The translations under genes were made by a program, and so were the position numbers. Shown here in pieces: positions 40,321-64,000 of a DNA stretch of 64,000 bases. Each line of letters begins with the position of its first letter. Positions within the stretch are counted from its first letter, which is position 1. Source of the stretch: Thalassotalea psychrophila (GTDB lineage: Bacteria; Pseudomonadota; Gammaproteobacteria; Enterobacterales; Alteromonadaceae); contig NZ_CP134145.1 of the NCBI RefSeq assembly GCF_031583595.1, positions 4,464,001 through 4,528,000 of the forward strand, read 5' to 3'. The notes beneath the pieces are model-generated. The model was not told where the DNA came from. It searched no databases and was given only the letters and a program-made list of their open reading frames with translations.

Positions 40321-40322
40321 CT

Positions 40323-41743: not shown

Positions 41744-41764
41744 AGCAAGGCTAATAGCCTTGCT
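41744..41764 (-). terminator. Intrinsic terminator of the cold-shock gene
   Basis: Stem agcaaggct / agccttgct with a 3-nt loop. On the minus strand it is followed by a run of about nine T (41735-41743 read in reverse). It also serves the convergent kinase gene, whose T-tract is weaker. Confidence 0.85.
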
Positions 41765-41816
41765 CTTTATTCTAAATTCTTAATGCTTTGGGTTAGTGAT
41801 CTAACCTAGCGATTAA

Positions 41817-47110: not shown

Positions 47111-47113
47111 ATT

Positions 47114-47812: not shown

Positions 47813-47816
47813 TACC

Positions 47817-49431: not shown

Positions 49432-49488
49432 TACAAAAAGCCCAATGGCACGATATCGATCATGCCTTTGGTACAGCTCTCGGTTGTA

Positions 49489-49980
49489 TTACATCATAAA
49501 ACCATAGTAATACAATGGAAACGAAGTAAGGCCGGTAGCAAACATGCTAATCATCCCGCAATACCCTAAAGGCCGATGAAACTTACGAAATGGGTTAGTT
49601 TTGGTATTTGGCGGGAGTTTAAATTTCTTTATCGATAAAATAACCAATACAGCCCATAACAAGGTGGTAATAATAGCGATTAATGTATGGCCCCACATCC
49701 AGTAATTTAGTGTATTTGTGCCAAAGTATGTGCTGTCTTTAGTAAGTACCGCCATACCACCAGAAAGCTTTAAATCTAGCTCAAAAATTACTACTGCAAC
49801 TGCCAAAATAACACTTAAGGAAATTTGCATTTTCGCATGGCCAAGATGATTGCCACTACGCGCTGTACGCCATGAGATGACCAACAATGGCATGATAATA
49901 ATGAACGCGACAATAACCAAATCCATCATCAAATCAGCTCGAGTACCAAAAAAACCTTGCGGAAACATGCCATTCTCCAA
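49489..49980 (-). CDS. DUF420-like four-helix membrane protein
   Basis: A 163-residue protein with four transmembrane helices and a His pattern like DUF420/YozB: GHAKMQISL, WMWGHTLIAI and KFHRPLGYCGMIS. DUF420 proteins often accompany cytochrome oxidase assembly genes, but none are here. Conserved histidines suggest haem or copper binding. It is the last gene in a leftward run starting at 53549. Confidence 0.65.
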   Translation of the reverse strand: MENGMFPQGFFGTRADLMMDLVIVAFIIIMPLLVISWRTARSGNHLGHAKMQISLSVILAVAVVIFELDLKLSGGMAVLTKDSTYFGTNTLNYWMWGHTLIAIITTLLWAVLVILSIKKFKLPPNTKTNPFRKFHRPLGYCGMISMFATGLTSFPLYYYGFMM

Positions 49981-49997
49981 ATTATTATTGTTTTATA

Positions 49998-50900
49998 TTA
50001 ACTAGTTAGCATAATCTCCAACAACTCACCTGCCTTACCTTTATACAATCGAACTTCACCATTACCATAATAAGGATCATTTTCGACCGTCATCGCGGCT
50101 AATGGTTGGTAATCAGCAGGAATGTTTTTTGCCTGCATAGTTACCAAAGCAATACCTGCAGGTAAGCATTTATCTTTATGGTGCTCTCCCGTTGTAACTT
50201 CATCGATTTCAATTAACGATTCACCGTTAAATTGAATAGTCGCCACCGGGTATTGATGGTTGATATCGATATTGAAAAAACGATTTAACACGGTAATTTT
50301 GGTATTAAAGCTTATGCCATTGTGTTGGTTTATGCCTTCATAAAAAGCCAAGCTGTTTGCGCGGTTAGGCGCTTTTAATACTGGGATAAATAATCTATCT
50401 AATTCAGCATCGGTAAATGGTAATTCAAACGGAGGCACAGCCGCTTTGATTTCAGTTAAGTACAACACTTCACCAACGGGCCCTGCTACTTGCATTGCTT
50501 TAATAGCATCACTCAACTCTAGATTGGCAGGTTTGCCGAGCACGCTAAAATTGTCGGTTATTTTTGTCGCTGTTTGCTCAACATCAGCAACATTTACCTC
50601 AAGAGACATCCAGCCGTAACGTGATAATGGGGTAGGTGATGTAGCGTCTTTATCTTCAATAATTCTTAACCACTTACTCGAACTGGGCGATTGCAATATC
50701 ACTTGCGTATTACCTGCTAACTTTGACGATTGCCAAAATGCAGCTTGTTGCTCGCTAATAGTAGTGCGGCTATATTCAGTCATGGCAAAGCTTTGCCTGT
50801 AAGCAGTAATAACCACATCAATATCAGCACAAACTAACGTTGCTCCTATCATAGGGCCAAGTTTTGGCGACGTTGCTTTACCCTTCATATTTTTGCCCAT
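49998..50900 (-). CDS. Two-domain VOC (glyoxalase/bleomycin-resistance) superfamily protein
   Basis: A 300-residue protein with two weakly conserved VOC-type halves (about 16-140 and 155-295). The first reads MIGATLVCADIDVVITAYRQSF and SRYGWMSLEVNVADVEQT, typical of the beta-alpha-beta-beta-beta units. Metal ligands are not clearly complete, so it may be an isomerase, dioxygenase-like or binding protein. Its start overlaps the end of the lyase gene by 23 bp; an internal ATG at 50888 is possible. Confidence 0.65.
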   Translation of the reverse strand: MGKNMKGKATSPKLGPMIGATLVCADIDVVITAYRQSFAMTEYSRTTISEQQAAFWQSSKLAGNTQVILQSPSSSKWLRIIEDKDATSPTPLSRYGWMSLEVNVADVEQTATKITDNFSVLGKPANLELSDAIKAMQVAGPVGEVLYLTEIKAAVPPFELPFTDAELDRLFIPVLKAPNRANSLAFYEGINQHNGISFNTKITVLNRFFNIDINHQYPVATIQFNGESLIEIDEVTTGEHHKDKCLPAGIALVTMQAKNIPADYQPLAAMTVENDPYYGNGEVRLYKGKAGELLEIMLTS

Positions 50901-51744
50901 TTGCTAAAATTTCATCAGTACCTAGTAACTGATTCAAACCACCAAGATCTAGCATCCTATCTTGGTATTGTTTGGTATTTTGATTCGCTTTTAAACTTCC
51001 TAAAAACTCTTGTGCCATAAACGTATATGCACGCACCATGGCACCAGGGAATATTACTAATGAATATCCCATCTGTTGTAAGTCATCCGCATCTTTTATT
51101 GGTGTAGAACCACCTTCAACCATATTGGCTAATAATGGTACTTTACCTTCGAATATTTCATTAATGGTTTGCATTTGTTCAAGGCTTTCAGGCGCTTCGA
51201 TAAATAACAGATCAGCACCCGCTTGATAATAGGCCATAGCTCTATCAACTGCAGCATCAAAGCCTTCAACGGCAATGGCATCTGTACGAGCAATAATCAT
51301 AGTGTCTGGGTTACTGCGAGCATCAACAGCGGCTTTTACTTTACCTACCATTTCTTCTTTACTGACTAACGCCTTACCTTTTAAATGACCACAACGTTTT
51401 GGCATTTGCTGATCTTCCAGCTGAATTGCTGAAGCACCCATGCGTTCAAATAACTTCACTGTGCGCTGAGTATTAATGGCATTGCCAAAACCTGTATCGC
51501 CATCAACAATGATCGGAAAATCAACTCGTTCACGAATAACCGCTAAAGTTTCAGCTACTTCATTCATACTAACTAAGCCAATATCTGGACGACCAAAACG
51601 GGTGTAAGCAATGCTGGCACCAGATAAATACATGGCGTTAAAGCCACCTTGTTGAATAAGCGATGCTGACAAACCATCGTAACCGCCTGGAGCGATTAGG
51701 ATTTCTTTGTCATTTACTAACTGGCGTAGCGTTTTTGCGTGCAT
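50878..51744 (-). CDS. Isocitrate lyase/PEP mutase-family lyase, dimethylmalate lyase-like
   Basis: A 288-residue ICL/PEPM-family TIM barrel. The catalytic-loop motif KRCGH (about 111-115) marks a carbon-carbon lyase rather than a mutase. APGGYDGLSASLIQQGGF, the metal-binding VDGDTGFGNA and IARTDA are conserved. Members with this layout include methylisocitrate lyase and 2,3-dimethylmalate lyase. No prpC or prpD-type methylcitrate cycle genes adjoin it, while a LeuCD-like hydratase does. The hydratase/lyase pairing is that of dimethylmaleate hydratase and dimethylmalate lyase from nicotinate fermentation. Confidence 0.82.
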   Translation of the reverse strand: MHAKTLRQLVNDKEILIAPGGYDGLSASLIQQGGFNAMYLSGASIAYTRFGRPDIGLVSMNEVAETLAVIRERVDFPIIVDGDTGFGNAINTQRTVKLFERMGASAIQLEDQQMPKRCGHLKGKALVSKEEMVGKVKAAVDARSNPDTMIIARTDAIAVEGFDAAVDRAMAYYQAGADLLFIEAPESLEQMQTINEIFEGKVPLLANMVEGGSTPIKDADDLQQMGYSLVIFPGAMVRAYTFMAQEFLGSLKANQNTKQYQDRMLDLGGLNQLLGTDEILANGQKYEG

Positions 51745-51761
51745 TCTATGTCCTAAAATTT

Positions 51762-52262
51762 TTATTTATTGTTTTTATTCTGTAAAAACGGCATTAAACC
51801 ACCGGCGCGAACAATTTCCATTAACTGCGGTGGAATGGCTTCGCATTTATATTGTTCGTTTTTACTATGATTAATAATCACGCCTTGTTCAGGCTGCACA
51901 CTAATTTGGTCGCCTTTACTAATTTTATCAGCGTCATTACAAACCAGAGCGGGAAGGCCAAGGTTCAAAGCATTGCGATAGAAAATACGAGCAAAGGATT
52001 TAGCGATCACAGTACTTACACCTAATTCCACCAGTGCTTGTGCGGCTTGCTCACGTGAAGATCCGATACCAAATGCTTCTCCGCCAACCACAACATCCCC
52101 TGTTTTTACCTGAACAGCAAAATCAGTATCTATGGCCTCAAAGCAATGTTTGGCAAGCTCTGCCATTGGTTTTTTCATATAAGGGCCAGGCGCTAAAATA
52201 TCGGTATCTATGTTATTACCATAAACCCATGCACTGCCTTTTTGTTCACTATTAAAAGTCAT
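51762..52262 (-). CDS. LeuD-like small subunit of a hydro-lyase (dimethylmaleate hydratase-like)
   Basis: A 166-residue small (swivel-domain) subunit of an aconitase-superfamily dehydratase. WVYGNNIDTDILAPGPYM (about 12-29), GGEAFGIGSSREQAAQAL (about 60-77) with the substrate-binding GSSRE, and KSFARIFYRNALNLGLP are family signatures. The short size fits LeuD2/HacB/DmdB rather than the ~200-residue enterobacterial LeuD. 10 bp separates it from the large-subunit gene. No leuA or leuB nearby, so leucine synthesis is unlikely. Confidence 0.85.
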   Translation of the reverse strand: MTFNSEQKGSAWVYGNNIDTDILAPGPYMKKPMAELAKHCFEAIDTDFAVQVKTGDVVVGGEAFGIGSSREQAAQALVELGVSTVIAKSFARIFYRNALNLGLPALVCNDADKISKGDQISVQPEQGVIINHSKNEQYKCEAIPPQLMEIVRAGGLMPFLQNKNNK

Positions 52263-52271
52263 TTTTAGCTC

Positions 52272-53549
52272 CTACAAATACTCACGTGGATCGGCAATCT
52301 TGCCTGCAATAGCTGCAGCGGCAACAGAATAAGGAGAGCCTAAATATACTTCTGAGTTAGGTGAGCCCATACGCCCTTTAAAGTTTCGAGACGTTGATGA
52401 GATGCAGACTTCACCATTGGCAATCGCACCAGCGCCCATACCGGCACAAGCACCACAGCCGGTTGGTAAAATAATTGCGCCCGCTTCCGTAAGTATTTCT
52501 AAAGTGCCATCACTGGCCGCTTGGTTGGTGGTTTTTGCCGAAGCCGGTGCGACTAATAAGCGTGTGCCATCAGCAACCTTGTTACCCTTTAAAACTTTTG
52601 CCGCCATATGTAAGTCAGTTAATTTCGCTCCGGTACATGCGCCAATATAAGCTTGATCCACATGAACATTTTCAAAACTATCAACATCATTGGTATTTTC
52701 TGGGCTATGCGGTGCGGCTATTTGTGGCTTTAACTCACTGGCATCAAAGTTGTACTCGGCAAAGTAAATTGCATCACTATCGCTTTGCCAATCTTCAATG
52801 TTACCTTCAAAAACCTTTCCTGCGGTTTCAATTGCTGCAATTGTGCTGCTATCTGGCGCGATAACACCGGTTTTAGCACCAAGTTCTGCGGTCATGTTAC
52901 AAAGCACCATCCGTTCTAACATGTTCATTTGGTCAATGGCAGTCCCTGTAAATTCAATCACTTTATAATTATTATTTACACCAAGCTTTTTGCATAAAAA
53001 CAGCATGATGTCTTTTGATGATACGCCAACGGATAATGTACCGTGCCAATTTACTCTAATGGTTTCAGGTACCTTGATCCAAATTTCACCTGTGGCTAAT
53101 ACACCGGTCATTTCTGTAGCACCGATGCCCACCATAAAACAACCAAAAGCACCGCCAGTTGGAGAATGCGAATCACCGCCTACTAGAAAATTGCCAGGTA
53201 ATAAATGCCCCTTCTCTGCCATCATTACATGACAAATACCCTGCATATCGTAGAAGTTACTGATGTTATTATCTTTAGCCCAACGACGGGTCAGAGCTAA
53301 AATTTCAGCACTTTCTGCATCTGTTGCAGGTACGAAGTGATCACTTACTAATATGATTTTGTTAGGATCAAACACTTTCGCGTTTAGGCTTTCTAAACGT
53401 TCTTTTACCCGGCGTGGACCTGAAGAGTCATGCATTAACACGTTATCCACTTTACAGGTAATTAATTCACCTGGTGAAACACTGACAACATTGGCTGCAC
53501 GGGAAATAATTTTTTCAGCTAGCGTCTGCGCTTTGCTTTGTTCAGTCAT
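52272..53549 (-). CDS. LeuC-like large subunit of a 4Fe-4S hydro-lyase (dimethylmaleate hydratase-like)
   Basis: A 425-residue catalytic subunit. The three Fe-S cysteine ligands are in YIGACTGAKLTD (about 301-312) and PTGCGACAGMG (CxxC, about 362-372). GDSHSPTGGAFGCFMVGIG and the start LAEKIISRAA are typical. The ~420-residue length fits the archaeal/anaerobe LeuC2 branch that includes homoaconitase and DmdA. A TTG at 53561 extends the frame, but the ATG at 53549 has GAGG upstream. With the small subunit and the lyase, it would hydrate a substituted maleate to a malate. Confidence 0.85.
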   Translation of the reverse strand: MTEQSKAQTLAEKIISRAANVVSVSPGELITCKVDNVLMHDSSGPRRVKERLESLNAKVFDPNKIILVSDHFVPATDAESAEILALTRRWAKDNNISNFYDMQGICHVMMAEKGHLLPGNFLVGGDSHSPTGGAFGCFMVGIGATEMTGVLATGEIWIKVPETIRVNWHGTLSVGVSSKDIMLFLCKKLGVNNNYKVIEFTGTAIDQMNMLERMVLCNMTAELGAKTGVIAPDSSTIAAIETAGKVFEGNIEDWQSDSDAIYFAEYNFDASELKPQIAAPHSPENTNDVDSFENVHVDQAYIGACTGAKLTDLHMAAKVLKGNKVADGTRLLVAPASAKTTNQAASDGTLEILTEAGAIILPTGCGACAGMGAGAIANGEVCISSTSRNFKGRMGSPNSEVYLGSPYSVAAAAIAGKIADPREYL

Positions 53550-53607
53550 CAACAACCTCAATGATCATTGTTAGTTTGAAAATAATAAAACTACTATACT
53601 ATTAAAA

Positions 53608-53625
53608 TGATATATTAGTATATCA
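53608..53625. promoter_or_regulatory. Candidate operator, TGATATA-N4-TATATCA
   Basis: Perfect 7-bp arms with a 4-nt spacer (ttag), between the leftward hydratase operon and the rightward enoyl-CoA-hydratase-like gene. It differs from the 27.1/27.3 kb sites only at one symmetric position per arm (A/T). Confidence 0.55.
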
Positions 53626-53641
53626 ATATAGTTTTTACCTT

Positions 53642-53653
53642 TGACAAATGTCA
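53642..53653. promoter_or_regulatory. Palindrome TGACAAATGTCA
   Basis: 12-bp palindrome TGACA-AA-TGTCA. Its reverse complement is found exactly at 18551-18562, upstream of the Crp/Fnr-type gene. Also overlaps a TTGACA that could act as -35. Confidence 0.45.
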
Positions 53654-53718
53654 GCTAAATAGTTGATGATGAGATAAAGCTAAATAGAAATAACAAATAT
53701 AAAGAACAATAAATCACT

Positions 53719-54489
53719 ATGGATTATTTAAGTTTAGAGATCAGCGGCAGTATTGCTTATCTCACCATCAATAGACCCGAGAAGCGTAATGCCTTTAATC
53801 AACAGATGTGGCGCAACCTACCAAAACTGTTAGCCAAAGCTGTGCAAGCAAATACGCGCTGCTTAATTTTGCAAGCGAGTGGCGATAAAGCATTTTGTGC
53901 TGGTGCCGATATTGATGAACTAACGGTGATGATCAAAGATAAAACCGAACTTAAGGTCAATAATCAATACATTCAAGAAGCTCAGCAAGCCTTAGCAGTA
54001 CTACCAATAGTAACAATTGCCCTAATTAACGGAGCATGTATGGGCGGCGGTTTAGGTTTAGCCATGGCCTGTGATTTTAGAATTGCTGCCAATCATGCCA
54101 AATTTGCGATTACTCCCGCCAAGCTAGGTCTGTTGTATAGTATTGCTGATACTAAACGAGTTTATGAATTAGTTGGTTTGAGTCGAGCTAAAGAATTATT
54201 AATGTTAAGTAAAGTACTCGATGCTGCAACTGCTGTTGATTACGGCTTGATCAATCAACAATGTGAACTTGACCAATTAACTGACCGTGGAGAAGAACTT
54301 TGCCAGCAAGTATTGCTTAACAGTGGATACAGTCAACGAGGAATAAAGCTCACTTTAAATCAGATAAGTGGCGAGCAACAAGTAACCGTCCAACAATTAG
54401 ATGATTTGTTTATTGACGCTTTTGATGGTGATGATTTTAACGAAGGTGCTGCTGCTTTTCTTGAAAAACGTAAGCCGAAATTCTGCTAA
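53719..54489 (+). CDS. Enoyl-CoA hydratase/isomerase-family protein lacking both usual glutamates
   Basis: A 256-residue crotonase-fold protein: ITINRPEKRNAFN-like start, GDKAFCAGADIDELT (about 55-69) and NGACMGGGLGLAMACDFRIA (about 100-119) form the oxyanion hole. Where hydratases have Glu in GG-C-E-LA and PE-x-x-LG, this protein has Gly and Ala (GGGLGLA, TPAKLGLLYS). It therefore is unlikely to be a water-adding hydratase and could be a hydrolase, decarboxylase or isomerase. It overlaps the thioesterase gene by one base. Confidence 0.8.
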   Translation: MDYLSLEISGSIAYLTINRPEKRNAFNQQMWRNLPKLLAKAVQANTRCLILQASGDKAFCAGADIDELTVMIKDKTELKVNNQYIQEAQQALAVLPIVTIALINGACMGGGLGLAMACDFRIAANHAKFAITPAKLGLLYSIADTKRVYELVGLSRAKELLMLSKVLDAATAVDYGLINQQCELDQLTDRGEELCQQVLLNSGYSQRGIKLTLNQISGEQQVTVQQLDDLFIDAFDGDDFNEGAAAFLEKRKPKFC

Positions 54490-54932
54490 TGACTAATGCA
54501 AATATAGCCCATGAAAAGATAATTAATGAGGCCTGGCAATTATGCGCTGCCATGCAAGGTTTCTCTGCCCATATGGGCCCATTCTATGAGAAACAAGAAA
54601 ACGATAGCAACGTTTTTACTCGATTATTACCATTACAAGAACATCACCAAAATCCAGAAGGTGTAATACACGGAGGGGTGCTAACAGCCGTTGCTGATTA
54701 TGGCATTTATCGAGCAATTGGCGATGTACTTGGCCATCAACAAAAGTTTGCGACAATTAACTTAAATTGTGATTTTCTCGCCGCGGCAACCAGTGCTGAT
54801 GATTCATTAAAGGTAAAAGGTAAAATAACCCGATTAACTAAATCTTTAGTCTTCGCCGAAGGTATGGTTTATACCGAGCGTAGAGAAGTACTGCGAGCTA
54901 CTGGAATTTGGAAGTTAATAAGCTCTAAGTAA
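54489..54932 (+). CDS. PaaI-type hot-dog thioesterase
   Basis: A 147-residue acyl-CoA thioesterase. The PaaI signature PEGVIHGGVLTAVADYGIY (about 57-75) carries the HGG motif and catalytic Asp. It probably releases CoA from dead-end or product thioesters of the pathway. Translationally coupled to the crotonase-like gene. Confidence 0.85.
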   Translation: MTNANIAHEKIINEAWQLCAAMQGFSAHMGPFYEKQENDSNVFTRLLPLQEHHQNPEGVIHGGVLTAVADYGIYRAIGDVLGHQQKFATINLNCDFLAAATSADDSLKVKGKITRLTKSLVFAEGMVYTERREVLRATGIWKLISSK

Positions 54933-55568
54933 TTATCCAGCTAACGCCTTAAATGCGTTTTCCATCTCAATAATACCCTGTTTTACCGCGCTGTCTTGTT
55001 GTACCCACTGCCACCATGCAGTAATTGCAGGGTAATCAGCAAGGATATTTTCGTAGCCAAAAAGACGAGGGGTTGCTTCAGTAAAATACATTGTTGTCGC
55101 TAAAGCAATATCTCCAATATTTAATGACCTTGTTGAATACTGAGGCATCGACTGCAGCAGGTTCTCGCCCTTTTGTAGCTCAGCTTTTATTAACTTTATT
55201 TCTTGTTCAACATCAATTTTAGTTTTCATCAATAAAGATTTAAACATTGGAAATAACGATGGTCCAAGGTGTAAATCTGCATAGCGTCCAACCATGGCCA
55301 TATGAGCATTTTCAATTGCAGCATTTGGTTTTAAAGAAGTATCGGTAAAGCACTGCTCAAGGTATTCCATAATTACCCAAGACTCAGTAATCGCCGTATG
55401 CTCATCCAATTCCAGAACAGGGATTTTACCAAGGGGAAATTTACTCAAAAACTCCGCGGTTCTAAGTTCAGGCTGTGGAGCACAAATCTCAATCGGCAAA
55501 TTCTTTTTTCTGATCTGGATGCGTACTCGGGTTGAGTAAGGTGAAATATCAGAGCTTAATAAGCGCAT
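54933..55568 (-). CDS. Glutathione S-transferase-like protein
   Basis: A 211-residue GST. The N-terminal thioredoxin-like domain contains SPYSTRVRI (catalytic-type Ser at about 10-13), GKIPVLELDEHTAITES (cis-Pro and the ES glutathione site, about 47-63), and the C-terminal helical domain contains NIGDIALATTMYF with the N-capping Asp. Could be a maleyl-type isomerase, dehalogenase or detoxifying enzyme. Convergent with the thioesterase gene; its stop is adjacent. Confidence 0.82.
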   Translation of the reverse strand: MRLLSSDISPYSTRVRIQIRKKNLPIEICAPQPELRTAEFLSKFPLGKIPVLELDEHTAITESWVIMEYLEQCFTDTSLKPNAAIENAHMAMVGRYADLHLGPSLFPMFKSLLMKTKIDVEQEIKLIKAELQKGENLLQSMPQYSTRSLNIGDIALATTMYFTEATPRLFGYENILADYPAITAWWQWVQQDSAVKQGIIEMENAFKALAG

Positions 55569-55589
55569 TTTCTATCCTTATTATTTTTA

Positions 55590-56264
55590 TTATGGATTTA
55601 TTAGGTGCATACCAAGGGCAGCATTAACTATTAGGCCAAACCAAATGAAATACACAAATGGTCGCACTCGATTGATAGAGCCCTGCATAACTGCATCTAT
55701 TTCGTCATTAGGGCCGTCTTTCATCATCTGCATAAATGCTGGTACAAATGGTTTAAGCATTACCCTAATACCCAAACCACAACAAACAAGAATGGCAAAC
55801 ATGATCAATTTCCAAGCTAAGTACTCTGCCTGAATAAAACTAGGTGTTGTCGAGAACATAGATTCAAGGGCTACATAGAAACAGATCAAGACTACGACAA
55901 TGCGAAAATTAAAATCAAACTTGGTAAGGGGGGCTACAAATTTTTTGCCATGACCAAAATGAATCGCTAATACCATAGCTAACCAAACTGCACACACTAG
56001 CCATACCAACACCATTGCCCAAGCAGGAATGGTGATAGCACCAGAGTTAAATGCCATTTGCACACCAGGGCCTAAAATTAAAGCCATACAAATACGTGGA
56101 CCTTGATCAACACCCATCATAATGGTTAATGCGGTACTGCGCTGTTCTTTGCTTAAGCCTTTTTTCGCAACAAATTTAGACGCATAAAATGTGCCCAAAT
56201 CGCCACCTAACCAATAGACAAATAAAACGATATGCAGCAATTTAAAAATTAAGTATTCAGTCAT
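55590..56264 (-). CDS. CopD/HemJ/DUF2269-like integral membrane protein
   Basis: A 224-residue protein with about six transmembrane helices. The first has KLLHIVLFVYWLGGDLGTFYAS, a His followed by a W-x-G-G pattern like the first helix of HemJ, CopD and DUF2269 proteins, where the His binds haem or metal. Further His and Met are in AIHFGHGKKF. It is in the same direction as the GST and 21 bp upstream. Family assignment is tentative; an electron-transfer or tetrapyrrole-linked role is possible. Confidence 0.5.
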   Translation of the reverse strand: MTEYLIFKLLHIVLFVYWLGGDLGTFYASKFVAKKGLSKEQRSTALTIMMGVDQGPRICMALILGPGVQMAFNSGAITIPAWAMVLVWLVCAVWLAMVLAIHFGHGKKFVAPLTKFDFNFRIVVVLICFYVALESMFSTTPSFIQAEYLAWKLIMFAILVCCGLGIRVMLKPFVPAFMQMMKDGPNDEIDAVMQGSINRVRPFVYFIWFGLIVNAALGMHLINP

Positions 56265-56515
56265 GTAATTTACGTACTCTAGTAACTAACACTATATTCG
56301 TTAGCAGATATTTTTATATATTGGCTTTATTAAAGCAGTTAATGCAAAAAAGCGAAATGACATAAATCATCTTGATATTTGTTGCATTTGTATTGTATCT
56401 ATATCATTATTGCTTTTCGCACTCATATTTCAATAAAACTCGCGGCACACAAGGCTTACAGTTAATATACATATGTGCAAATAAGTAGTACTGACCAAAA
56501 AGAAGATATAACAAT

Positions 56516-57283
56516 ATGACATTTGAAGAGTTACTTAATGACCCTCGTTTAGGTCAGGCATTAAAAAGTGATGTCCCAACACCTTTGTACCATCAGGTTT
56601 ATTTATTTCTTAAAGAAAAAATTCATTTAGGTGATATTCCCTTCGGTGAAAAGATGCCGACTGAACATCAATTGTCAGAAGCATTTCAAGTATCACGTAT
56701 TACCGCAAAACGTGCCATGGATGAACTTGCTGAAGAAGGTTACATCTCTCGCCGCAGAGGTAAAGGCTCGCATGTTATCTACAAACATAGAGCTGAACAA
56801 CTAGCCGCGCCACTATCGGGCTTATTAGAAAACTTAAAAGTATTAGGCGAAGAAACGCAAGTACGCTCTATTGATTTCAAACGTGCCATTCCACCACTCG
56901 ATATACAAGAGCGGTTTGGTTTAGCTCCAAACGAAGAATTAATTCAATCGGTAAGAGTTCGATTAACTGACGGTATACCATTTGGTTATTACGTAAGTTG
57001 GACGCGTGATATTGGAGAAGGTTATAACGAAATGTCATTGCAGCAGTCCACACGTTTAGATCTATTTAAAAGTGCAGGTATTGCATTAGATAATGTTGAA
57101 CAATCGATTACCGCAACTCTGTCGAATATGGATACCGCGTTAGTATTAGAAATTCCAACAGGCCGACCATTATTATTATTAGATCGTTCTATGTATGATG
57201 CTGAAGGTAAGTTAATTGACCACCTTTATGCTATATACCGCCCAGATAAATATCAATTTGATATGAAATTTTCAATGAAGTAA
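56516..57283 (+). CDS. GntR/HutC-family regulator with UTRA domain
   Basis: A 255-residue regulator: a GntR winged helix (about 20-85) with KIHLGDIPFGEKMPTEHQLSE and VSRITAKRAMDELAEEGYISRRRGKGS, then a UTRA ligand-binding domain (about 105-245) of the HutC/FarR kind. UTRA proteins sense small metabolites, commonly a pathway intermediate. It is the best local candidate for binding the TGWTATA-N4-TATAWCA palindromes, but known HutC-type sites are usually different. Ends in a hairpin terminator. Confidence 0.9.
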   Translation: MTFEELLNDPRLGQALKSDVPTPLYHQVYLFLKEKIHLGDIPFGEKMPTEHQLSEAFQVSRITAKRAMDELAEEGYISRRRGKGSHVIYKHRAEQLAAPLSGLLENLKVLGEETQVRSIDFKRAIPPLDIQERFGLAPNEELIQSVRVRLTDGIPFGYYVSWTRDIGEGYNEMSLQQSTRLDLFKSAGIALDNVEQSITATLSNMDTALVLEIPTGRPLLLLDRSMYDAEGKLIDHLYAIYRPDKYQFDMKFSMK

Positions 57284-57289
57284 CAGCGG

Positions 57290-57314
57290 TTATCCTGCAC
57301 TTGATGCAGGATAA
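57290..57314 (+). terminator. Hairpin after the GntR-family gene
   Basis: 10-bp perfect stem ttatcctgca / tgcaggataa with a 5-nt loop, 7 bp after the stop. Only a short following T content. Confidence 0.7.
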
Positions 57315-57343
57315 AATTCACCGCATAACTAGATTATAAACAA

Positions 57344-57375
57344 CGTCTTCCCACCGTGTTTTTGGGTGGGATCTC
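57344..57375 (-). repeat. REP-like palindrome, copy 4 (divergent)
   Basis: CGTC, then arms tcccacc (57349-57355) and ggtggga (57365-57371), then TCTC; this is the same CGTC...stem-loop...TCTCC layout as copies 1-3 read in reverse. Lies between two convergent genes and could double as a terminator. Confidence 0.45.
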
Positions 57376-57422
57376 ATTCCGCGTATTGTGCATCGTTGAA
57401 TAATGTTTTTGTAATTAAACTT

Positions 57423-58109
57423 CTATTTCACTAAATAAACTTGCCAATGCACATCAGGCTTTTGTTGCCAGCAATATTGGCTTAGCTGCCCTAATTTATT
57501 TAGATAAAACTCAGCCTGATCTTCTTGATAATGTTCACTGGTAAAACTAAGCTTTTTGCCCTTGCCGTTTGTCCCTAAAGATTTAGTTTTCCGTAAGTCA
57601 AAGCTAGGCTTGAGTTTATCGTTATAACGCGTTGCAAGTCGGATATCAGGTACTAATACTTGCTTTTGTTGACCATTATCAATTTTGCAATCTTGTAGCA
57701 TCGTACCGCTGAATATACGTAATAGAGGAAAAATGACTAACCCCTCTACACAGCCATGTTGTTGGAATATATCGCCGGGATGGCTTTGAGTAACCTTCCA
57801 ATTACCTTGTCCATCAATTCTATACTCAGCATTTATATCTGGGCTATCACCTTCACTGTAACTTATATCAACAACTTGATTACCATCAGAAATATGAGCA
57901 ACTACCGAAAGCTTAACTCGATACTTTTCGCTATATCGTACGCTGCGAACTATTTGCAAGTTGCCATTTTCTAAGATTTGCCAAGGCTCTTGTATGTCAG
58001 TGCTTTCACCATTTAAGTGATATTGATATTGTCCTTGGTCCATTATTTTAAAATGTTGTTTTTGGATCGCTGTTAATGGCACAATTTTATCAAGCAATGC
58101 TTTATCCAT
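57423..58109 (-). CDS. Unknown soluble protein, similar in style to 34250-34999
   Basis: A 228-residue soluble protein of alternating beta-like segments (GNLQIVRSVRYSEKYRVKLSV, NGQQKQVLVPDIRL) and no signal peptide. An IFQQHGCVEGLVIFPLLRIFSG segment in the middle resembles the HPTCGDAWFCQIF segment of the protein at 34250-34999, suggesting a shared DUF3108-like fold. No catalytic residues can be recognised. It is the last gene of the leftward run nitrilase-VOC-this gene, so a role on the same substrate is likely. Confidence 0.5.
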   Translation of the reverse strand: MDKALLDKIVPLTAIQKQHFKIMDQGQYQYHLNGESTDIQEPWQILENGNLQIVRSVRYSEKYRVKLSVVAHISDGNQVVDISYSEGDSPDINAEYRIDGQGNWKVTQSHPGDIFQQHGCVEGLVIFPLLRIFSGTMLQDCKIDNGQQKQVLVPDIRLATRYNDKLKPSFDLRKTKSLGTNGKGKKLSFTSEHYQEDQAEFYLNKLGQLSQYCWQQKPDVHWQVYLVK

Positions 58110-58150
58110 AGTTACTTCCTTGGAGATTTTTTATTATTATTTCGATTTGA

Positions 58151-58612
58151 TTATTTAATTTGAATGAGTTCAATATACAAATTGCCGGTTGTTTCTGGGT
58201 CTAAATAAACCATTTTTTTACTACCGGTATCCATGACTCCGTTCGGTGTTACATAACCGGGAATGATGCCCTGCTTCGCCAAAACATCCACGCTTTCTTC
58301 AATATCAGTTACCAACCAAGCTATATGATTTATGCCACCACCACCTGCAGGGGCGGAATGTAATAAGTGTTTAAAGTCAGTTGAAATTGGTTCGATTAAT
58401 TCGATTTCACTGTCATTTATTTTGATAAAAGCAAAACGCGTTAATACTTCATCACCGGTTTGTGAAAAGGGTGGAAACACTAAAATATCACTATCTTCAA
58501 CACCGTATACTTTCTTATAATCAGCAATAGATGCCGTTAAATCGGTAACGATAAAGCCAACATGAGCCAAACCGACAATTTGCTGCTTTAGGGTGTTTGC
58601 AATGTTAGTCAT
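58151..58612 (-). CDS. VOC-family protein, methylmalonyl-CoA epimerase-like
   Basis: A 153-residue VOC protein: VGLAHVGFIVTDLTASIADYKKVYG (about 13-37) with the first metal-binding His, a central SEIELIEPIS with the Glu, GGGINHIAWLVTDIEES (second His) and LYIELIQI (last Glu). The four-ligand HEHE pattern is complete. It resembles methylmalonyl-CoA epimerase but related lactoylglutathione-lyase-like proteins are equally possible. Its start lies one base after the stop of the nitrilase-like gene. Confidence 0.78.
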   Translation of the reverse strand: MTNIANTLKQQIVGLAHVGFIVTDLTASIADYKKVYGVEDSDILVFPPFSQTGDEVLTRFAFIKINDSEIELIEPISTDFKHLLHSAPAGGGGINHIAWLVTDIEESVDVLAKQGIIPGYVTPNGVMDTGSKKMVYLDPETTGNLYIELIQIK

Positions 58613-58613
58613 G

Positions 58614-60347
58614 TTATTTGTTTTCCATTGTGTTGCTATTATTAGTTGTAAGTTGGGTGCTTGTTTTCGTGGTTAGTACATCACTTAATTGCCACGGCCT
58701 GTCGCTGAGCAAATCAGTATTTGCCGACATTAATTTATTGCTAGCAGCAATAGGCGAAATACTCGTTTGAGTAAATCCAGACTGTTGCCTAGTGAGTAAA
58801 GGATGATTGATATAGCCATCAAATTTACGGTGCTGCCATGGCGTCATTATGGTGAAATCTGTTTCTAAATTGGCCACTAAACCCGAAAGCTGTTTATGCT
58901 CTAACAATTTGTTTCTACTGCTGGCAATCACACAAATACGATTTTCTGCAGCTCGAGAAAGTAAACCAAAATCGACTTCCCACGGCTCTTGAATATCAAC
59001 AGGACAAATTAGCGCATGGACACCTTGCAACGCAGCAACTTTTGCAAGTTCTGGATAACAGGCATCATCACCAGTAAGCAGCGCAACTTTGCCCCATGGC
59101 AGTGAATACACTTTTAGTTTATCGGCCAAATCAGACCACTGATGCCGTTTACACTGGTGTAATTGGCCTTGAGAAAATTCTAGCCCGTGCTCATTAATCA
59201 ACACGGCTTTATGGCTATCCCCAATAACTAATGAAGTAGCCACAAATTGGTTCGGTGCTAATATTGAGGCAATATCCCTTATCGCCATTTCGCTGTATTG
59301 ACGGGCCAGTTCAATATCATTCACAACAGAGTCGGCTAGAAAAAATAACTCTGGCAAAACAATCAACGCTTCGCTGCGCGCTGCCAGCTGTTGCTTTACA
59401 TTTATCAATCGTTGCAAAGGTTCTGATAAGTTAATTGGCAATTGATACAAAGCAATATCGACTTGTTCGGCACCACCTCGGCAATACTGCTGCTTTGCCG
59501 GTTTTACAATAGTTTGATAAAGCTCGGGGCGACGGTTATTAAATAAATCACTGCCATCTGGTCGGCACTTATTATTGCTGTCGGCTAAGTTGATGTCGGC
59601 ATATATAAAACCTTCTTGGTTATATGCTGCTTTTGCCAATATTTCACCATTTGGAGCAACAATTTGGCTCTCGCCCGCTCCCATTAAAAACTGCTCAGGA
59701 ATACTAGTGGCTTTAGCGACATCACTTAATACTTCAATTGGAATTAACGGCCCGACTTTATTTGCCGAAGCTAAGAACACTTTATTTTCTGGTGCGCGTG
59801 CAGGCACATGCAAACTGGCTTCATCTAGGGCGAATGAATTAAGAGAATCGCAAAATAATTGTGCGCCGCGTAATGCTAAAGAGCGAGGTGTTTCACACGT
59901 TACGCCATCTCTACATGGAAAAATACCTAATTGACCAAACTCGGTCTCGATCACATCAGAATGCTTATTTGCACGAACAAAAAAATCATTTTCGTGGCCC
60001 ATTAAAGTCTGTTTATCTGCTTCTAAAATTAAACTACCTTGCGGTGAAAACAACAGTGAAGTCACCGTTATATCAGGAAATTTTCGGCGCAAACTAACAT
60101 TTATGACAATGTAACAATGGTGTTTTTTTGCCTGCTGAGAAATTTTTTGTAAGAACTCACCATCAATATCTAGGGCTAATTGCCAAGCATGATCTTGGTC
60201 TTCATACCAAGATAAAGCATTACAGAACTCGGGCAACACCATAAGTTCAGGCGCACAGCTCGATGCTTCCTCAATCATTCTTAAACAAGTATTTAGGTTA
60301 TCACTTACGCTTAACGTAGTTGCAAATTGTAAAACCGAGACCCGCAT
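58614..60347 (-). CDS. Tandem two-domain carbon-nitrogen hydrolase (nitrilase superfamily), second domain degenerate
   Basis: A 577-residue fusion of two nitrilase-superfamily domains (about 1-280 and 290-555); ordinary members have one. Domain 1 keeps the triad: Glu in LPEF, Lys in ADKQTLMGHEND and Cys in GIFPCRDGV. Domain 2 keeps Glu in LPELF and a possible Lys in HQCKRHQW, but where the catalytic Cys belongs it reads LLTGDDACYPEL, aligning a Gly. Domain 2 is likely inactive and structural or regulatory. It would hydrolyse an amide or nitrile. First gene of a three-gene leftward unit, divergent from the RCCR operon. Ribosome site AGGATAA. Confidence 0.78.
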   Translation of the reverse strand: MRVSVLQFATTLSVSDNLNTCLRMIEEASSCAPELMVLPEFCNALSWYEDQDHAWQLALDIDGEFLQKISQQAKKHHCYIVINVSLRRKFPDITVTSLLFSPQGSLILEADKQTLMGHENDFFVRANKHSDVIETEFGQLGIFPCRDGVTCETPRSLALRGAQLFCDSLNSFALDEASLHVPARAPENKVFLASANKVGPLIPIEVLSDVAKATSIPEQFLMGAGESQIVAPNGEILAKAAYNQEGFIYADINLADSNNKCRPDGSDLFNNRRPELYQTIVKPAKQQYCRGGAEQVDIALYQLPINLSEPLQRLINVKQQLAARSEALIVLPELFFLADSVVNDIELARQYSEMAIRDIASILAPNQFVATSLVIGDSHKAVLINEHGLEFSQGQLHQCKRHQWSDLADKLKVYSLPWGKVALLTGDDACYPELAKVAALQGVHALICPVDIQEPWEVDFGLLSRAAENRICVIASSRNKLLEHKQLSGLVANLETDFTIMTPWQHRKFDGYINHPLLTRQQSGFTQTSISPIAASNKLMSANTDLLSDRPWQLSDVLTTKTSTQLTTNNSNTMENK

Positions 60348-60403
60348 TATTTATCCTGAATTTTTCTAAAACTGCGTTAAAGCAATTCAAAGTTTGACAC
60401 ATT

Positions 60404-60427
60404 GTTATAATGTTAATACATTATAAC
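60404..60427. promoter_or_regulatory. 24-bp palindrome in the nitrilase/epimerase divergent promoter
   Basis: Perfect 10-bp arms gttataatgt (60404-60413) and acattataac (60418-60427), spacer taat. It overlaps a possible promoter (TTGACA at 60394). It shares the TTATA/TATAA half-sites with the 27.1, 27.3 and 53.6 kb palindromes, although the internal spacing is longer. Confidence 0.55.
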
Positions 60428-60461
60428 TTATTGACTCACTATAAAACACTTTAGGTAAAAA

Positions 60462-61340
60462 ATGAAAGTACTTATTTTAGGACTCGGACATGTAGGCAAA
60501 GCAGTCGCTACAAAATTAAAAGCAGACGGCCATAGTGTTGTTGGTACAACGACAACCGAAGCAAAAGTTGCAGAGCTATCAACTTTAGTTGAGCAAGTAT
60601 TTGTGCTTAAAGGCGAAGAAACTGACAAAGTTATTGCCGCCGCAGAAGGTTGTGACGCAATTATTGCCACGGTTGCGCCAAACGTTAGAAATACTCGTAC
60701 CAAAGAAGAGCGTGAAACTCATTACCATCAAGCTCTAGAACTTAGCTGTCAAAGCGCTGCTAAAGCTTGTCCGCGAGTAATCTTCTTATCGTCGTTTTCA
60801 GTATATGGCGATGGCGGCGTTGATAGCGCACCAATTAGTGAACTAACACCAACGTCTAATCATGAAGAGCCATCTTCAAAATATTACCAAAAAGCTGAGC
60901 AAGAAGTTTTAAGTAATGCACAAGGTTGCGTACTTCGTTTTCCTGATATGTACGGTGCTCCTGGCGATATTGATTTTCCACAACGAGTAAAAATGGCCAT
61001 TGAATATTTTGGTGGCAAAGCAATTTTTGGTGCTGATGCGCCACTTTATGCCATTCACTTCAATGACGTTGTCAGCTCGGTATACCACGCCTTAAATAAT
61101 GAATTAACCGGCATTTATAATGTTTGTGATAACGAAAATATTCCATCAACTAACAAAGTTGTATTTGATGCTATTTGCGATGATAACGATTGGTTGCGCC
61201 TTGAATTTTTAAACCAAATTAAAGCGCCTAACCGCAAAATTTCAGCCGATAAAATTTATGCGACTGGATACGCCGTAGAACATGGCGATCCAAATGCAGA
61301 CGTAGTTGCTAGAGCACAATCAACAGGACAAGGCGCTTAA
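60462..61340 (+). CDS. NAD(P)-binding epimerase/dehydratase-like protein (atypical extended SDR)
   Basis: A 292-residue Rossmann-fold protein. It starts MKVLILGLGHVGKAVA, a GxGxxG motif. FLSSFSVYGDGG carries the extended-SDR Ser/Tyr region, and the Lys would be in KYYQKAEQE. LRFPDMYGAPG and YAIHFNDVVSS are typical of YeeZ/UDP-sugar-epimerase-like proteins. In this operon a redox step on the pigment-derived substrate is likely; sugar substrates are less so. It is the first gene, with a 2-bp gap to the SDR. Confidence 0.72.
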   Translation: MKVLILGLGHVGKAVATKLKADGHSVVGTTTTEAKVAELSTLVEQVFVLKGEETDKVIAAAEGCDAIIATVAPNVRNTRTKEERETHYHQALELSCQSAAKACPRVIFLSSFSVYGDGGVDSAPISELTPTSNHEEPSSKYYQKAEQEVLSNAQGCVLRFPDMYGAPGDIDFPQRVKMAIEYFGGKAIFGADAPLYAIHFNDVVSSVYHALNNELTGIYNVCDNENIPSTNKVVFDAICDDNDWLRLEFLNQIKAPNRKISADKIYATGYAVEHGDPNADVVARAQSTGQGA

Positions 61341-61342
61341 TC

Positions 61343-62140
61343 ATGGCAAATGTAGTTATCACCGGTAGCACCAAAGGCATTGGTCGCGGCTTAGCCGCAG
61401 AGTTTGCTAAGCAAGGCCATAAAGTAATGATATCCGGCCGTAAACAAAACGACATTGATAGCACCATTGCTGAACTTGGTTTTGAATCAGGGCAAGTTGT
61501 CGGTTTAGCCTGTGACACTACTGATAAAGCACAAGTTCAAGCACTTTGGGATGAAGCTAAAAGCACATTTTCAACGGTTGATATCTGGGTTAATAACGCC
61601 GGCCTTGCACGTACTGTTTGGTCAATTTTAGATACGCCAGACAGTGAAATTAGCACCATGGTTAATACTAACCTGCTCGGTAATATTAACTGCTGCAAAG
61701 TGGTAGCAAACGGCATGAAGCAACAAGGTGGAGGTAAAATCTTTAACATGCTTGGCGGTGGCAGTGACGGTGAATACTTTAAGGGTATGGGCGTTTATGG
61801 CACCACCAAACGTGGCTTAGATTACTTTACTAATGCGCTGAGCAAAGAGCTTAAAGATGACAATATCATCGTCGGTAAAATACGCCCAGGGATGATCATA
61901 ACCGAAGGCGTTATTCGTGAAGCTAAAGAAGATTTAGATAATTTTCAAAAACGCCGAAAATTTGCCAATGCCTTATGCGATACCGTAGAAACAGTTGCGC
62001 CATTTTTAGTCGAGAACATTCTTAAATTTAATAAAACTGGTAAAAAAATCGCCTGGCTAAACACCACAAAAATTACATTGCGCATGCTAGCGACATTTAT
62101 CAGCAAGCCAAAAGACAAATTTGAAGACTTCGGTTTATAG
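61343..62140 (+). CDS. SDR resembling chlorophyll b reductase (NYC1/NOL)
   Basis: A 265-residue classical SDR with TGSTKGIGR (7-15), NNAG (84-87), Ser141 in GGGSDG, Tyr152 and Lys156 in YGTTK. Beyond the SDR core, several stretches match plant NOL/NYC1 as I remember it: VDIWVNNAG, a GxIFN-x-x-GxGSDG catalytic region, YGxTKR, and RPGM-x-x-T followed by a VAPFLVENI-like segment. Plant enzymes reduce the 7-formyl of chlorophyll b to hydroxymethyl. Direct adjacency to the RCCR-like gene supports a tetrapyrrole substrate. Alternative: a general SDR with convergent resemblance. Confidence 0.65.
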   Translation: MANVVITGSTKGIGRGLAAEFAKQGHKVMISGRKQNDIDSTIAELGFESGQVVGLACDTTDKAQVQALWDEAKSTFSTVDIWVNNAGLARTVWSILDTPDSEISTMVNTNLLGNINCCKVVANGMKQQGGGKIFNMLGGGSDGEYFKGMGVYGTTKRGLDYFTNALSKELKDDNIIVGKIRPGMIITEGVIREAKEDLDNFQKRRKFANALCDTVETVAPFLVENILKFNKTGKKIAWLNTTKITLRMLATFISKPKDKFEDFGL

Positions 62141-62151
62141 GAATAGAAACA

Positions 62152-62976
62152 ATGACAACCGCAAATAAAGAAACAAAAACACTTGATGAATTTTTAGCAG
62201 AAAACCCAAACGTTGACGTTACTCAATATTGGGAACGCTGTTGGGGAATTTTAAGTGAATTAAAAGAAAAAATTAGTAAGCGTTTTCCTAACCTTGAACA
62301 ACACCCATCAACATTTGATCGTGAATATTACACCTCACCAAATGGCGAGTTTGAAGGCTCTTACAAAGCGTGGACTGGCGAAGGTGCAGAATGGGTAGTT
62401 AACTCTTGGATTGGTAACCGTAAAGCTAGCATCCTAGATATGAATACTACAGCATTCTTAGGCCAAGAAACTGATGTTCCGCATTTAGTTATCGTATTTG
62501 GCACTGTGCCACATTTGTTTTGTTATGCCGATTACACTCCGCGTAAAAACCTTCTTACTAACGTTGACTATCTAGACAAATACTACGGCGACGAGGTGAA
62601 TGACTGGTACATGAAATTACGCAGTGACGAAAATTTTCATTGGTCAGTAAGCCACGGTAATTACATGCGTGCGTTAATTAACCCTGCAACTCAAAGCTTA
62701 ATGGGTGAATTAAACCACGACAATATCGACATCCTAGAAAAGTACTTACATGAAATGGTTGATCGTTGGTTAGGTTGGTTAGAAAACGCTGAAGCTGTAC
62801 CCATGGAAGATCGCGCTGAACTACAACGTAACGACCATATTATTCGTGAAATGGGCTATGCCCGTGACCCAATGAATAAATTAGCGGCTAATGTTTTCGG
62901 TGCAGATGAAGTCGAAAATATGATCAAGCTACGAATGGGTAGCGAGCAAATGCAAGCCAACAAAACGTATAAATAG
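62152..62976 (+). CDS. Red chlorophyll catabolite reductase-like (RCCR) protein
   Basis: A 274-residue soluble protein whose features match plant RCCR by eye: SPNGEFEGS (62-70) followed by VNSWIG (83-88); FLGQETDVPHLVIVF (102-116); YADYTPRKNLL-x-NVDYLDKYY (125-145); RAELQRND (221-228); and a C-terminal VFGADEVENMIKLRMG (248-263). RCCR is related to ferredoxin-dependent bilin reductases and reduces the C15/C1 region of red chlorophyll catabolite. One acidic residue I recall as substrate-contacting in Arabidopsis appears as Val here (VIVF), which would imply a changed substrate, but this needs an alignment. No ferredoxin gene is nearby. 11 bp follow the SDR stop. Confidence 0.7.
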   Translation: MTTANKETKTLDEFLAENPNVDVTQYWERCWGILSELKEKISKRFPNLEQHPSTFDREYYTSPNGEFEGSYKAWTGEGAEWVVNSWIGNRKASILDMNTTAFLGQETDVPHLVIVFGTVPHLFCYADYTPRKNLLTNVDYLDKYYGDEVNDWYMKLRSDENFHWSVSHGNYMRALINPATQSLMGELNHDNIDILEKYLHEMVDRWLGWLENAEAVPMEDRAELQRNDHIIREMGYARDPMNKLAANVFGADEVENMIKLRMGSEQMQANKTYK

Positions 62977-63000
62977 CTGGTTATAGTAGGAGCAGGATAA

Positions 63001-64000
63001 TGAGTTCAGTTCGATTTTTAGGTATCGACTTAGTCAACGGCGTAAAGCGCCGTCACTTGCTTGCCTACTTTTTCGCGGTATTAATTTCGTCGGGCTATGC
63101 CGGGGCGATGTCGATACTGCAACCAGGCCTGTTACACGTTATTGGTATTGATTATAAATCCCAAGCACAAATCACCGGTATGTTAGGTGCTTTGCAAGAA
63201 GTTATTTTCATTATCATGCTTGGTATATATGGCGTGTTCGCTGATCGAATTGGCCGCCGCTATATTTATACATTTGGGTTGCTTACTACAGCTATTGGTT
63301 TTGCTCTTTATGGCACCTCAACCTCGGTTAATGAATTAATACTATATCGCGTTATCGTTGCATTAGGCTCTGGCGCTATGGTTGGCATGATGGTTACCGT
63401 AATTGCTGATTATGCCGAAAATAAAAGTCGCGGCAAAGCAAACGGCTTGCAAGGATTGATAGCTACATTTGGTGCTTTTATACCACCAATTTTAGCCACC
63501 CTGCCGAATACTTTTGTGCAATCGGGTATGACCGAAGTTGATGCCCAACAAGTCACCTTTGCCATTGCTGGCTCTATGGGTGTTGTTGGTGCCATTGTTG
63601 CCTACTTAGGTTTGTCAAAAGTCGCCGGCACCATTGTTAACGCTCACAATGAATCCATTTTGCAGCAACTACGGCTCGGTTTCAAAGAAGCAAAAGCACC
63701 TAAAATTGCACTAAGTTATGGCGCAGCGTTTATTTCTCGTGGCGATTTAGCCGTGACAGGGGCATTTATGGGTCTCTGGCTAGTGCAATTTGGCACTAAA
63801 AACATGTCGCTTTCTGTAAGTGAAGCAATGAATCAGCTCGCAGTTCCTGCCATTTTGATGGTTGTAGTTGGTGCATTTATTGGCTCATTACTGATGGGTT
63901 ATGTCAGCGACAAAATTTCTAGAGTGCGAGCGGTAACTATAGCTTCTGGACTTGCTGCTTTAATTTATACCGCAATGTTGTTCGTTGAAGACCCCACCCA
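63001..64000 (+). CDS. MFS transporter, 3' end beyond the window
   Basis: An open frame of 333 codons that runs off the right edge, so the product is partial. It starts MSSVRFLGIDLVNGVKRRHL at 63001, with AGGAG 7 nt upstream. Transmembrane helices are evident (about 22-44, 65-85, 95-115, 120-140 onward), with a motif-A-type GVFADRIGRR (about 80-89) after helix 2, and a second such loop near residue 300 (YVSDKISRVR). It is coupled to the RCCR-like gene by 24 bp and probably imports the substrate or exports a product. Confidence 0.85.

Follow-up and report, generated by a model that had tools for sequence, protein, structure and literature searches.

The operon that closes this 64,000-nucleotide stretch of the Thalassotalea psychrophila genome (the window) encodes a homolog of red chlorophyll catabolite reductase (RCCR) and, on balance, appears to be part of a bacterial supercluster for aerobic tetrapyrrole breakdown, with chlorophyll-derived tetrapyrroles as its most likely substrates. 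Chlorophyll is made and degraded at a scale of 10^12 kg yearly (PMC7318184). In the excerpts of open-licence PMC literature available to us, we found no description of a bacterial RCCR, a bacterial chlorophyll catabolic cluster or a gene set taking tetrapyrroles further; PMC8531759 is a study of a bacterial Mg-dechelatase homolog. If confirmed, the island would suggest how some bacteria could eat chlorophyll-type pigments. It would make the genes for RCCR, a Rieske oxygenase and a third reductase, FDBR3, markers for pigment turnover in the sea, and it would supply new bilin reductases, a candidate macrocycle-opening oxygenase distinct from plant PaO and a route for maleimides.

The 274-aa protein at 62152-62976, RCCR1, is by homology a true RCC reductase relative. 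A sequence-only reading of this DNA had recognized the likeness, and profile searches bear it out: RCCR1 scores 46.5 bits against Pfam PF06405 (RCC_reductase; curated cut-off 24.9, E 3.4e-12), its residues 52-241 aligning to positions 23-232 of the 253-position profile. Among 177,635 PDB sequences, Arabidopsis RCCR (3agb) is matched at 9.4e-10 to 2.6e-9, and the next row stands at 0.1. This homology implies the alpha/beta/alpha fold of the ferredoxin-dependent bilin reductases (FDBRs). A protein search matched 293 of 494 candidates; all 120 that were listed are PF06405 proteins, and the named bacteria among them include Thalassotalea, Alkalimonas, Paraferrimonas, Halioglobus, Temperatibacter and Litorivivens. 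PF06405 had no match in 14 named control genomes, and RCCR1 had none in the plasmid collection. In a 29-row tree, which leaves out the G015 paralog and G512 C9, plant RCCR adjoins the RCCR1-type proteins; because the plant branch is very long (5.4), we draw no origin from it.

RCCR1 sits in a compact operon with a second copy of its family just downstream. The four open reading frames (ORFs) lie at the positions, strands and frames first reported for them, all on the plus strand; each starts with ATG, and the gaps between them measure 2, 11 and 23 bases. First comes an epimerase-like Rossmann protein (60462-61340, 292 aa; Epimerase/NAD_binding_10, PF01370 47.1 bits), found near RCCR in all four related genomes compared below. 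It is followed by the short-chain dehydrogenase (SDR) SDR1 (61343-62140, 265 aa; PF00106 143.6 bits; three of the four genomes), RCCR1 itself (four of four) and an MFS transporter at 63000-64325, which runs beyond the window end at 64000 (PF07690 93.6 bits for the in-window part). The profile matches confirm the epimerase-like and MFS neighbours that had been proposed. RCCR2 (L004:1328-2170; PF06405 45.7 bits) follows the MFS gene with no other gene between them, past the window end, and next to it is an alpha/beta-hydrolase-like gene (L004:2127-2894), named from its sequence. Sequence is likewise the basis of the names given below to the GST-like, thioesterase-like, TonB-receptor-like, xylose isomerase-like, xylulokinase-like and 2Fe-2S ferredoxin-like genes, the gene at 48778-49431, the genes at 11585-17789 and the two-component pair at 39598-41651. 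Thalassomonas sp. M1454 carries the same operon, with RCCR1 at 87% identity.

The operon belongs to a far larger conserved gene set. The supercluster that holds it spans about 118 kb, foreign blocks included. Ninety proteins of the own genome, 55 encoded in the window or directly beyond it and 35 in a second stretch (4.5486-4.6005 Mb of the contig), were compared with the RCCR surroundings in four related genomes from three genera including the own one (G087, G115, G110 and G015, the last on two contigs). Presence meant 35% identity and 70% coverage within the fetched stretches; the query abh255 started 13 codons late. Of the 90, G087 holds 68, G115 62, G110 60 and G015 41, in rearranged order, and the keeping of the set while its order changes argues for joint function. 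The 35 island genes of the window, those starting in 18793-38568 and 48778-64000 and counted with a DUF420-like gene that has no counterpart, fill 120 of 140 gene-by-genome cells; 24 of these genes recur in every one of the four genomes and 29 in three or more. The second stretch, also with 35 genes, has 104 of its 140 cells filled. By comparison, a single cell of 48 is occupied for the 12 genes lying upstream of 18793, and six genes at 38583-48404 (DUF1838, a response regulator, a kinase, an HmuS-like protein and two membrane-type proteins) fill none of 24. The island is therefore real: the counts show both its edge and a foreign insert within it. Since the stretches were picked for holding RCCR, shared descent or transfer of the island explains the joint presence. 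What had been proposed as a tetrapyrrole-modifying operon thus stands in its RCCR homology and conserved catabolic surroundings and fell short in extent, the gene set being much larger.

A third protein of the bilin reductase superfamily lies in the same supercluster. FDBR3 is a divergent bilin-reductase-type protein at 4573422-4574156 of the own genome, about 45 kb past the window. Its G115 ortholog touches both PF05996 (Fe_bilin_red; 22.6 bits, cut-off 31) and PF06405 (21.8, cut-off 24.9). The own copy matches only PF06405, at 14.5 bits, and so stays under both Pfam cut-offs; PF05996 is carried by 2 of the 120 listed FDBR3 homologs. An hhalign comparison with RCCR1 gives 97.1% (E 5e-11), and the best four PDB rows of the FDBR3 profile, all weak (E 0.046-0.18), are three RCCR entries and one phytochromobilin synthase. 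In the tree, a fully supported split sets FDBR3 apart from the PF06405 group. The acid residues D96 and D218 of FDBR3 are kept in 39 of 39 rows; the position of Arabidopsis E154 is Asp in all 39, and the C-terminal Asp is kept in all of them as well.

A Rieske oxygenase accompanies these reductases. The 406-aa protein has intact Rieske 2Fe-2S and mononuclear iron motifs (CxH-x16-CxxH at 46, DIAHASFVH at 158), its G110 ortholog carries a VanA_C domain, and its PDB relatives are demethylases such as NdmA. Near its gene lie a rubredoxin-rubredoxin reductase fusion and a flavin reductase, assigned by Pfam on the G110 and G115 orthologs and present as own copies too. The Rieske gene adjoins an RCCR gene in G110 and G015, and one ORF separates the two in G485.

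The Rieske protein and FDBR3 track RCCR from genome to genome. Of 147 family genomes 5 carry PF06405, as do 4 of 369 class genomes, and both counts include the own genome. At a threshold of E 1e-60, the Rieske protein turns up in the same five of 147, FDBR3 in the same four of 369, and the hydratase large subunit described below in six of 147, namely the RCCR five and G074; the sameness of these paired draws is read from their equal totals. Because one genus supplies three of the five family genomes, and another supplies two of the four from the class, fewer independent events underlie these counts than they suggest. In a set of 17 genomes, seven of the eight with RCCR have full-length Rieske relatives at 62% identity or more, and the eighth, G512, reaches 40% at best; the nine without RCCR show only partial matches of at most 37%, or none. 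G512 itself has 19 Rieske matches. The distant family f133 keeps a core near RCCR: an RCCR2-type gene, a membrane-type gene, an aldehyde dehydrogenase, maleate-isomerase-like and acyl-CoA-dehydrogenase-like genes, FDBR3 and a nitrilase, with the Rieske gene near RCCR in G485 and on another contig in G389. The gammaproteobacterial family f182 (L075-L103) has PF06405 in 33 of 40 genomes, 30 of them over the cut-off. Thirteen stretches from 12 of these 33 genomes place RCCR beside a response regulator/kinase pair in all cases except G512 C3, and in G514 an ACAD2 relative lies beside RCCR. Some f182 stretches also show a 2Fe-2S ferredoxin-like ORF near RCCR.

The lower enzymes of the island point to maleates and would suit dialkyl-maleimides, the one-ring remains of tetrapyrroles. 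Three adjacent minus-strand genes belong here: an aconitase-type hydratase with its large subunit at 52272-53561 (PF00330; TIGR01343, homoaconitase family, 472.8 against a cut-off of 385.7) and small subunit at 51762-52262 (PF00694; TIGR02087, LeuD/DmdB, 177.6 against 108.95), and an isocitrate-lyase/PEP-mutase family lyase at 50878-51744 (PF13714 150.4 bits; KRCGH motif). We propose the hydratase (51762-53561) as a dialkylmaleate hydratase and the lyase as a dialkylmalate lyase. The lyase matches 2,3-dimethylmalate lyase (3fa3) at 1.2e-49, in the 12th PDB row, with 4iqd, methylisocitrate lyases and others scoring better; against the prpB model it gives 295.5, under the cut-off of 354.4. In nicotinate fermentation, 2,3-dimethylmaleate hydratase and 2,3-dimethylmalate lyase act as such a pair. 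A PuuE-like hydrolase of the polysaccharide-deacetylase fold, in the operon at 20046-26755, is our proposed cyclic imidase, imidase activity being a property of PuuE-like proteins. The supercluster holds three such polysaccharide-deacetylase-type hydrolases, the other two being relatives of the window copy at 26-30%. It further holds isochorismatase-family amidases (one checked; we take the structures 4l07 and 3uao to be maleamate amidases), maleate-isomerase-like proteins (one checked, matching maleate isomerase 2xed at 6.6e-12), two nitrilases and a second hydratase and lyase. The hydrolase, lyase, hydratase and amidase types thus occur two or three times each, as would be expected were every differently substituted pyrrole ring to have a branch of its own. 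Genome G074 carries 13 of the 90 proteins as a lower module of hydratase, lyase, PaaK, amidase and MmgE genes (G074:C1:192964-223800, L127-L129).

Joined together, these parts would describe a route from macrocycle to central metabolism. The Rieske oxygenase, fed by the fused rubredoxin-rubredoxin reductase, would open or hydroxylate the macrocycle, the part that PaO plays in plants. RCCR1, RCCR2 and FDBR3, all three homologs within the bilin reductase superfamily, would then reduce the open-chain product at different positions, and SDRs, FAD and flavin enzymes and hydrolases would trim the chain to one-ring dialkyl-maleimides. PuuE-like imidases with isochorismatase- and nitrilase-type amidases may convert the maleimides to dialkylmaleates, from which cleavage by the aconitase-type hydratase and isocitrate-lyase-type lyase may yield 2-oxoacids and short acids; a parallel cleavage branch could run through CoA transferases, a MaoC hydratase and a CitE-type lyase. 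We join the parts as tetrapyrrole breakdown because PMC7318184 draws methyl-ethyl-maleimide, methyl-vinyl-maleimide and hematinic acid among the degradation products of chlorophyll and heme. Our literature search on imides and dimethylmaleate found nothing on point. Among tetrapyrroles, chlorophyll is the likeliest substrate, favoured in our analysis by the plant-like pairing of Rieske and RCCR genes and by the absence of heme oxygenase PF01126 from the own genome, where other heme oxygenase families were not searched. PF01126 was found in two of the 17 genomes, G009 without RCCR and G015 with it. A stronger version, complete chlorophyll mineralisation, is possible and we put it forward tentatively: a VanA_C-type Rieske oxygenase in place of PaO, three reductases, maleimides specific to each ring and, feeding central metabolism, dialkylmaleate branches that run in parallel, all on a transferable supercluster in rare marine Gammaproteobacteria.

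Several results weigh against the proposed breakdown of chlorophyll-derived tetrapyrroles. No enzyme that would split the open chain into rings was identified in the island. The C-terminal domain of plant PaO, PF08417, was found in none of the 17 genomes (its control matched in 2 of 14, one over the cut-off), which led us to reject a plant-type PaO, and Staygreen PF12638 was likewise found in none of the 17, with its control also silent. The Rieske protein's only NCBIfam match is 4beta-methylsterol monooxygenase at 111.8, far below the cut-off of 600. The hydrolase at 37531-38568 reaches 40.9 bits against Chlorophyllase PF07224 (cut-off 26) over only positions 20-78 of 301, and its PDB matches are weak and generic; on the strength of that weak, partial match we rejected the two upstream alpha/beta hydrolases as proof of chlorophyll use. 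In the reductases, the column of Arabidopsis E154, which we take to be the catalytic glutamate, is never acid in alignment A1 (V in 30, I in 4 and A in 2 of 36 rows, made up of 34 RCCR1-type proteins, RCCR2 and one G110 paralog); in alignment A3, RCCR1 shows V there, RCCR2 A and FDBR3 D. The C-terminal Asp D239 is kept in all 36 A1 rows and aligns within one residue of Arabidopsis D291, which with D290 we presume to be the C-terminal active-site Asp. With the E154 equivalent changed and the C-terminal Asp kept, RCCR1 and RCCR2 may therefore reduce a different position than plant RCCR, or bind only. No curated NCBIfam cut-off for PuuE, PrpB or RipC is reached by the island proteins, so homology does not name their exact substrates. 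The lower module can occur alone, there being no RCCR or Rieske gene in the 160 kb fetched from G074, and in the 13 f182 stretches RCCR stands without the island alongside. Finally, leaves in PMC7318184 yielded hematinic acid, and maleimides were not detected there.

The main competing substrate would be bilins of algal and cyanobacterial origin. On this account the island degrades open-chain bilins taken up from outside, of the phycobilin or biliverdin/bilirubin types, and the Rieske enzyme modifies the bilin or a side chain and opens no macrocycle. RCCR and FDBR enzymes act on linear tetrapyrroles, which fits such a substrate, as do the dual PF05996 and PF06405 match of the G115 FDBR3 ortholog, the phytochromobilin synthase touched by the FDBR3 profile, the missing PF08417 domain, and the TonB-receptor-like gene and MFS-type transporters of the supercluster. 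What makes this account unlikely is that the Rieske gene follows RCCR genome by genome, like the plant PaO/RCCR pair, and that the own genome lacks PF01126.

Breakdown of some other compound, for instance a pyridine, hydantoin or other N-heterocycle or a branched dicarboxylate, with the RCCR-like proteins re-used for a different reaction, strikes us as less probable still. The lost E154 equivalent, the lower module standing without RCCR in G074 and the demethylase relatives of the Rieske protein would all agree with it, and maleamate- and maleate-type enzymes are known from nicotine and nicotinate breakdown. Against this, one supercluster holds three members of the bilin reductase superfamily, and FDBR3 and RCCR coincide in four of 369 class genomes. 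It is very improbable that the RCCR operon supplies the cell with a reduced bilin for a photoreceptor or pigment of its own and lies near the catabolic island by chance: bacterial pre-PcyA proteins are active bilin reductases clustered with bilin-binding globins (PMC10151467), but the own genome has no PF01126 (globins and phytochromes were not searched for), and the same catabolic genes accompany RCCR across three genera of this family, while f133 retains a core of them.

The remaining island genes of the window surround the hydratase and lyase genes on both sides. Divergent from the RCCR operon, a two-domain nitrilase-superfamily (C-N) hydrolase lies on the minus strand at 58614-60347 (PF00795 152.6 bits over two stretches); its own counterpart occurs in one of the four genomes and a relative, nitril2, in three. 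The same strand carries a VOC-family, methylmalonyl-CoA-epimerase-like protein at 58151-58612 (PF13669 55.2 bits; all four genomes) and an uncharacterised island protein at 57423-58109, with no Pfam match over the cut-off, in two genomes and as weaker relatives in the other two. The plus-strand GntR/UTRA protein at 56516-57283 (PF00392, PF07702) is kept at 68-86% identity in all four genomes, in G015 on the Rieske contig, and is likely the island regulator. Next follow two minus-strand genes found in all four, a membrane protein without Pfam match (55590-56264) and a GST-like protein (54933-55568), and the plus-strand pair at 53719-54932 of an enoyl-CoA hydratase family member (PF00378 169.9 bits; four of four) and a thioesterase-like protein (two of four). 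Beside the hydratase and lyase genes stands an uncharacterised 300-aa protein on the minus strand (49998-50900), with no Pfam match, in all four genomes and G074. A membrane-protein-like gene on the plus strand (48778-49431) occurs in three of the four and beside RCCR in f133 (G389, G485).

The upstream half of the island consists mainly of two operons. On the plus strand, the operon at 27398-34148 encodes two MmgE/PrpD-type proteins, a PaaK-like CoA ligase, an amidase and a CaiB-type CoA transferase, all five in the four genomes and G074; the PaaK-like protein and amidase are named by profile, the others from sequence alone. The minus-strand operon at 20046-26755 encodes two CaiB-type proteins, an acyl-CoA dehydrogenase, a MaoC hydratase, a CitE/RipC-type lyase, the PuuE-like hydrolase and an SDR, all seven in the four genomes; the first four are again named from sequence, and the lyase and hydrolase stay under NCBIfam cut-offs. 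Further plus-strand genes are a protein matching DUF3108 below threshold together with a methyltransferase (34250-36182; four of four), the two alpha/beta hydrolases (36579-38568; PF00561 87.4 bits, and a weak PF07224 match for the second; two of four) and, at the island edge, a Crp/Fnr-type regulator (18793-19500; PF13545, PF00027; three of four). Upstream of the island, catabolic-looking CitE-like, AMP-ligase and MaoC-like genes at 11585-17789 have no counterpart in the compared stretches.

Several smaller observations concern the supercluster as a whole. Two strongly conserved island proteins have no Pfam match: one of 324 aa (L071:6825-7799, 73-86% in four genomes) and one of 198 aa (L070:13762-14358, 70-84% in three genomes). 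In the second half of the supercluster, a gene at L069:16482-17420 has a sub-threshold match to DUF3623 (PF12291; 21.2 bits, cut-off 27), a photosynthetic-complex assembly family. In the own genome, a sugar-utilisation-like block with xylose isomerase-like and xylulokinase-like genes (L004:3113-15898) interrupts the supercluster.

Two further genes of the window were weighed as possible enzymes of chlorophyll or related tetrapyrrole metabolism. SDR1 had been likened to the chlorophyll b reductases NOL and NYC1 by its GxGSDG and YGxTKR motifs. Both are present (GGGSDG at 138, YGTTKR at 152), but among the 120 homologs listed of 1706, own copy included, 116 carry the first and all 120 the second, so the motifs do not single out NOL/NYC1 and look like traits of SDR1's bacterial subfamily. 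The names of these listed homologs are generic, and the best curated (NCBIfam) and solved (PDB) matches are generic SDRs. The 1590-aa CobN/BchH-like protein at 42338-47110, considered as a Mg or Co chelatase of the pathway, was rejected: it is HmuS-like (1246.5 bits to PDB 9d26, against about 390 to ChlH and 338 to CobN) and has no copy in the stretches compared from the other islands (0 of 4 genomes), which places it outside the conserved island. Its insert also has a membrane-type gene and a MotA/ExbB-type gene (47817-48404), with a two-component pair upstream (39598-41651).

The supercluster can be set beside several known systems. It shares with plant RCCR the PF06405 family, matched over the cut-off, together with similar length, a D/PR motif and the C-terminal Asp; it differs in the V/I/A at the Arabidopsis E154 position, in two diverged copies in one operon and in its bacterial host. 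As in the plant PaO/RCCR pathway, a Rieske oxygenase gene accompanies the RCCR genes, but the island enzyme is of the VanA_C type rather than PF08417. The plant route leads to phyllobilins (PMC4950323, which also treats plant RCCR), whereas the island has enzymes for further breakdown; PMC6775998 deals with eukaryotes. FDBR3 is related by sequence to the ferredoxin-dependent bilin reductases and bacterial pre-PcyA (PF05996) and keeps the acid residues D96 and D218, yet it stays below both Pfam cut-offs and sits in a catabolic island. The pre-PcyA clusters include heme oxygenase, V4R and globin genes (PMC10151467); of these partners only heme oxygenase was searched for, and the own genome lacks PF01126. 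HmuS is a heme de-chelatase (PMC12583661) that the 42338-47110 protein resembles, the latter not being part of the conserved island. The adjacent LeuC/LeuD/ICL-type genes belong to the same families as dimethylmaleate hydratase and dimethylmalate lyase, with TIGR02087 over its cut-off and 3fa3 as a relative; they reach no equivalog, and their substrates in the island would presumably be larger dialkylmaleates.

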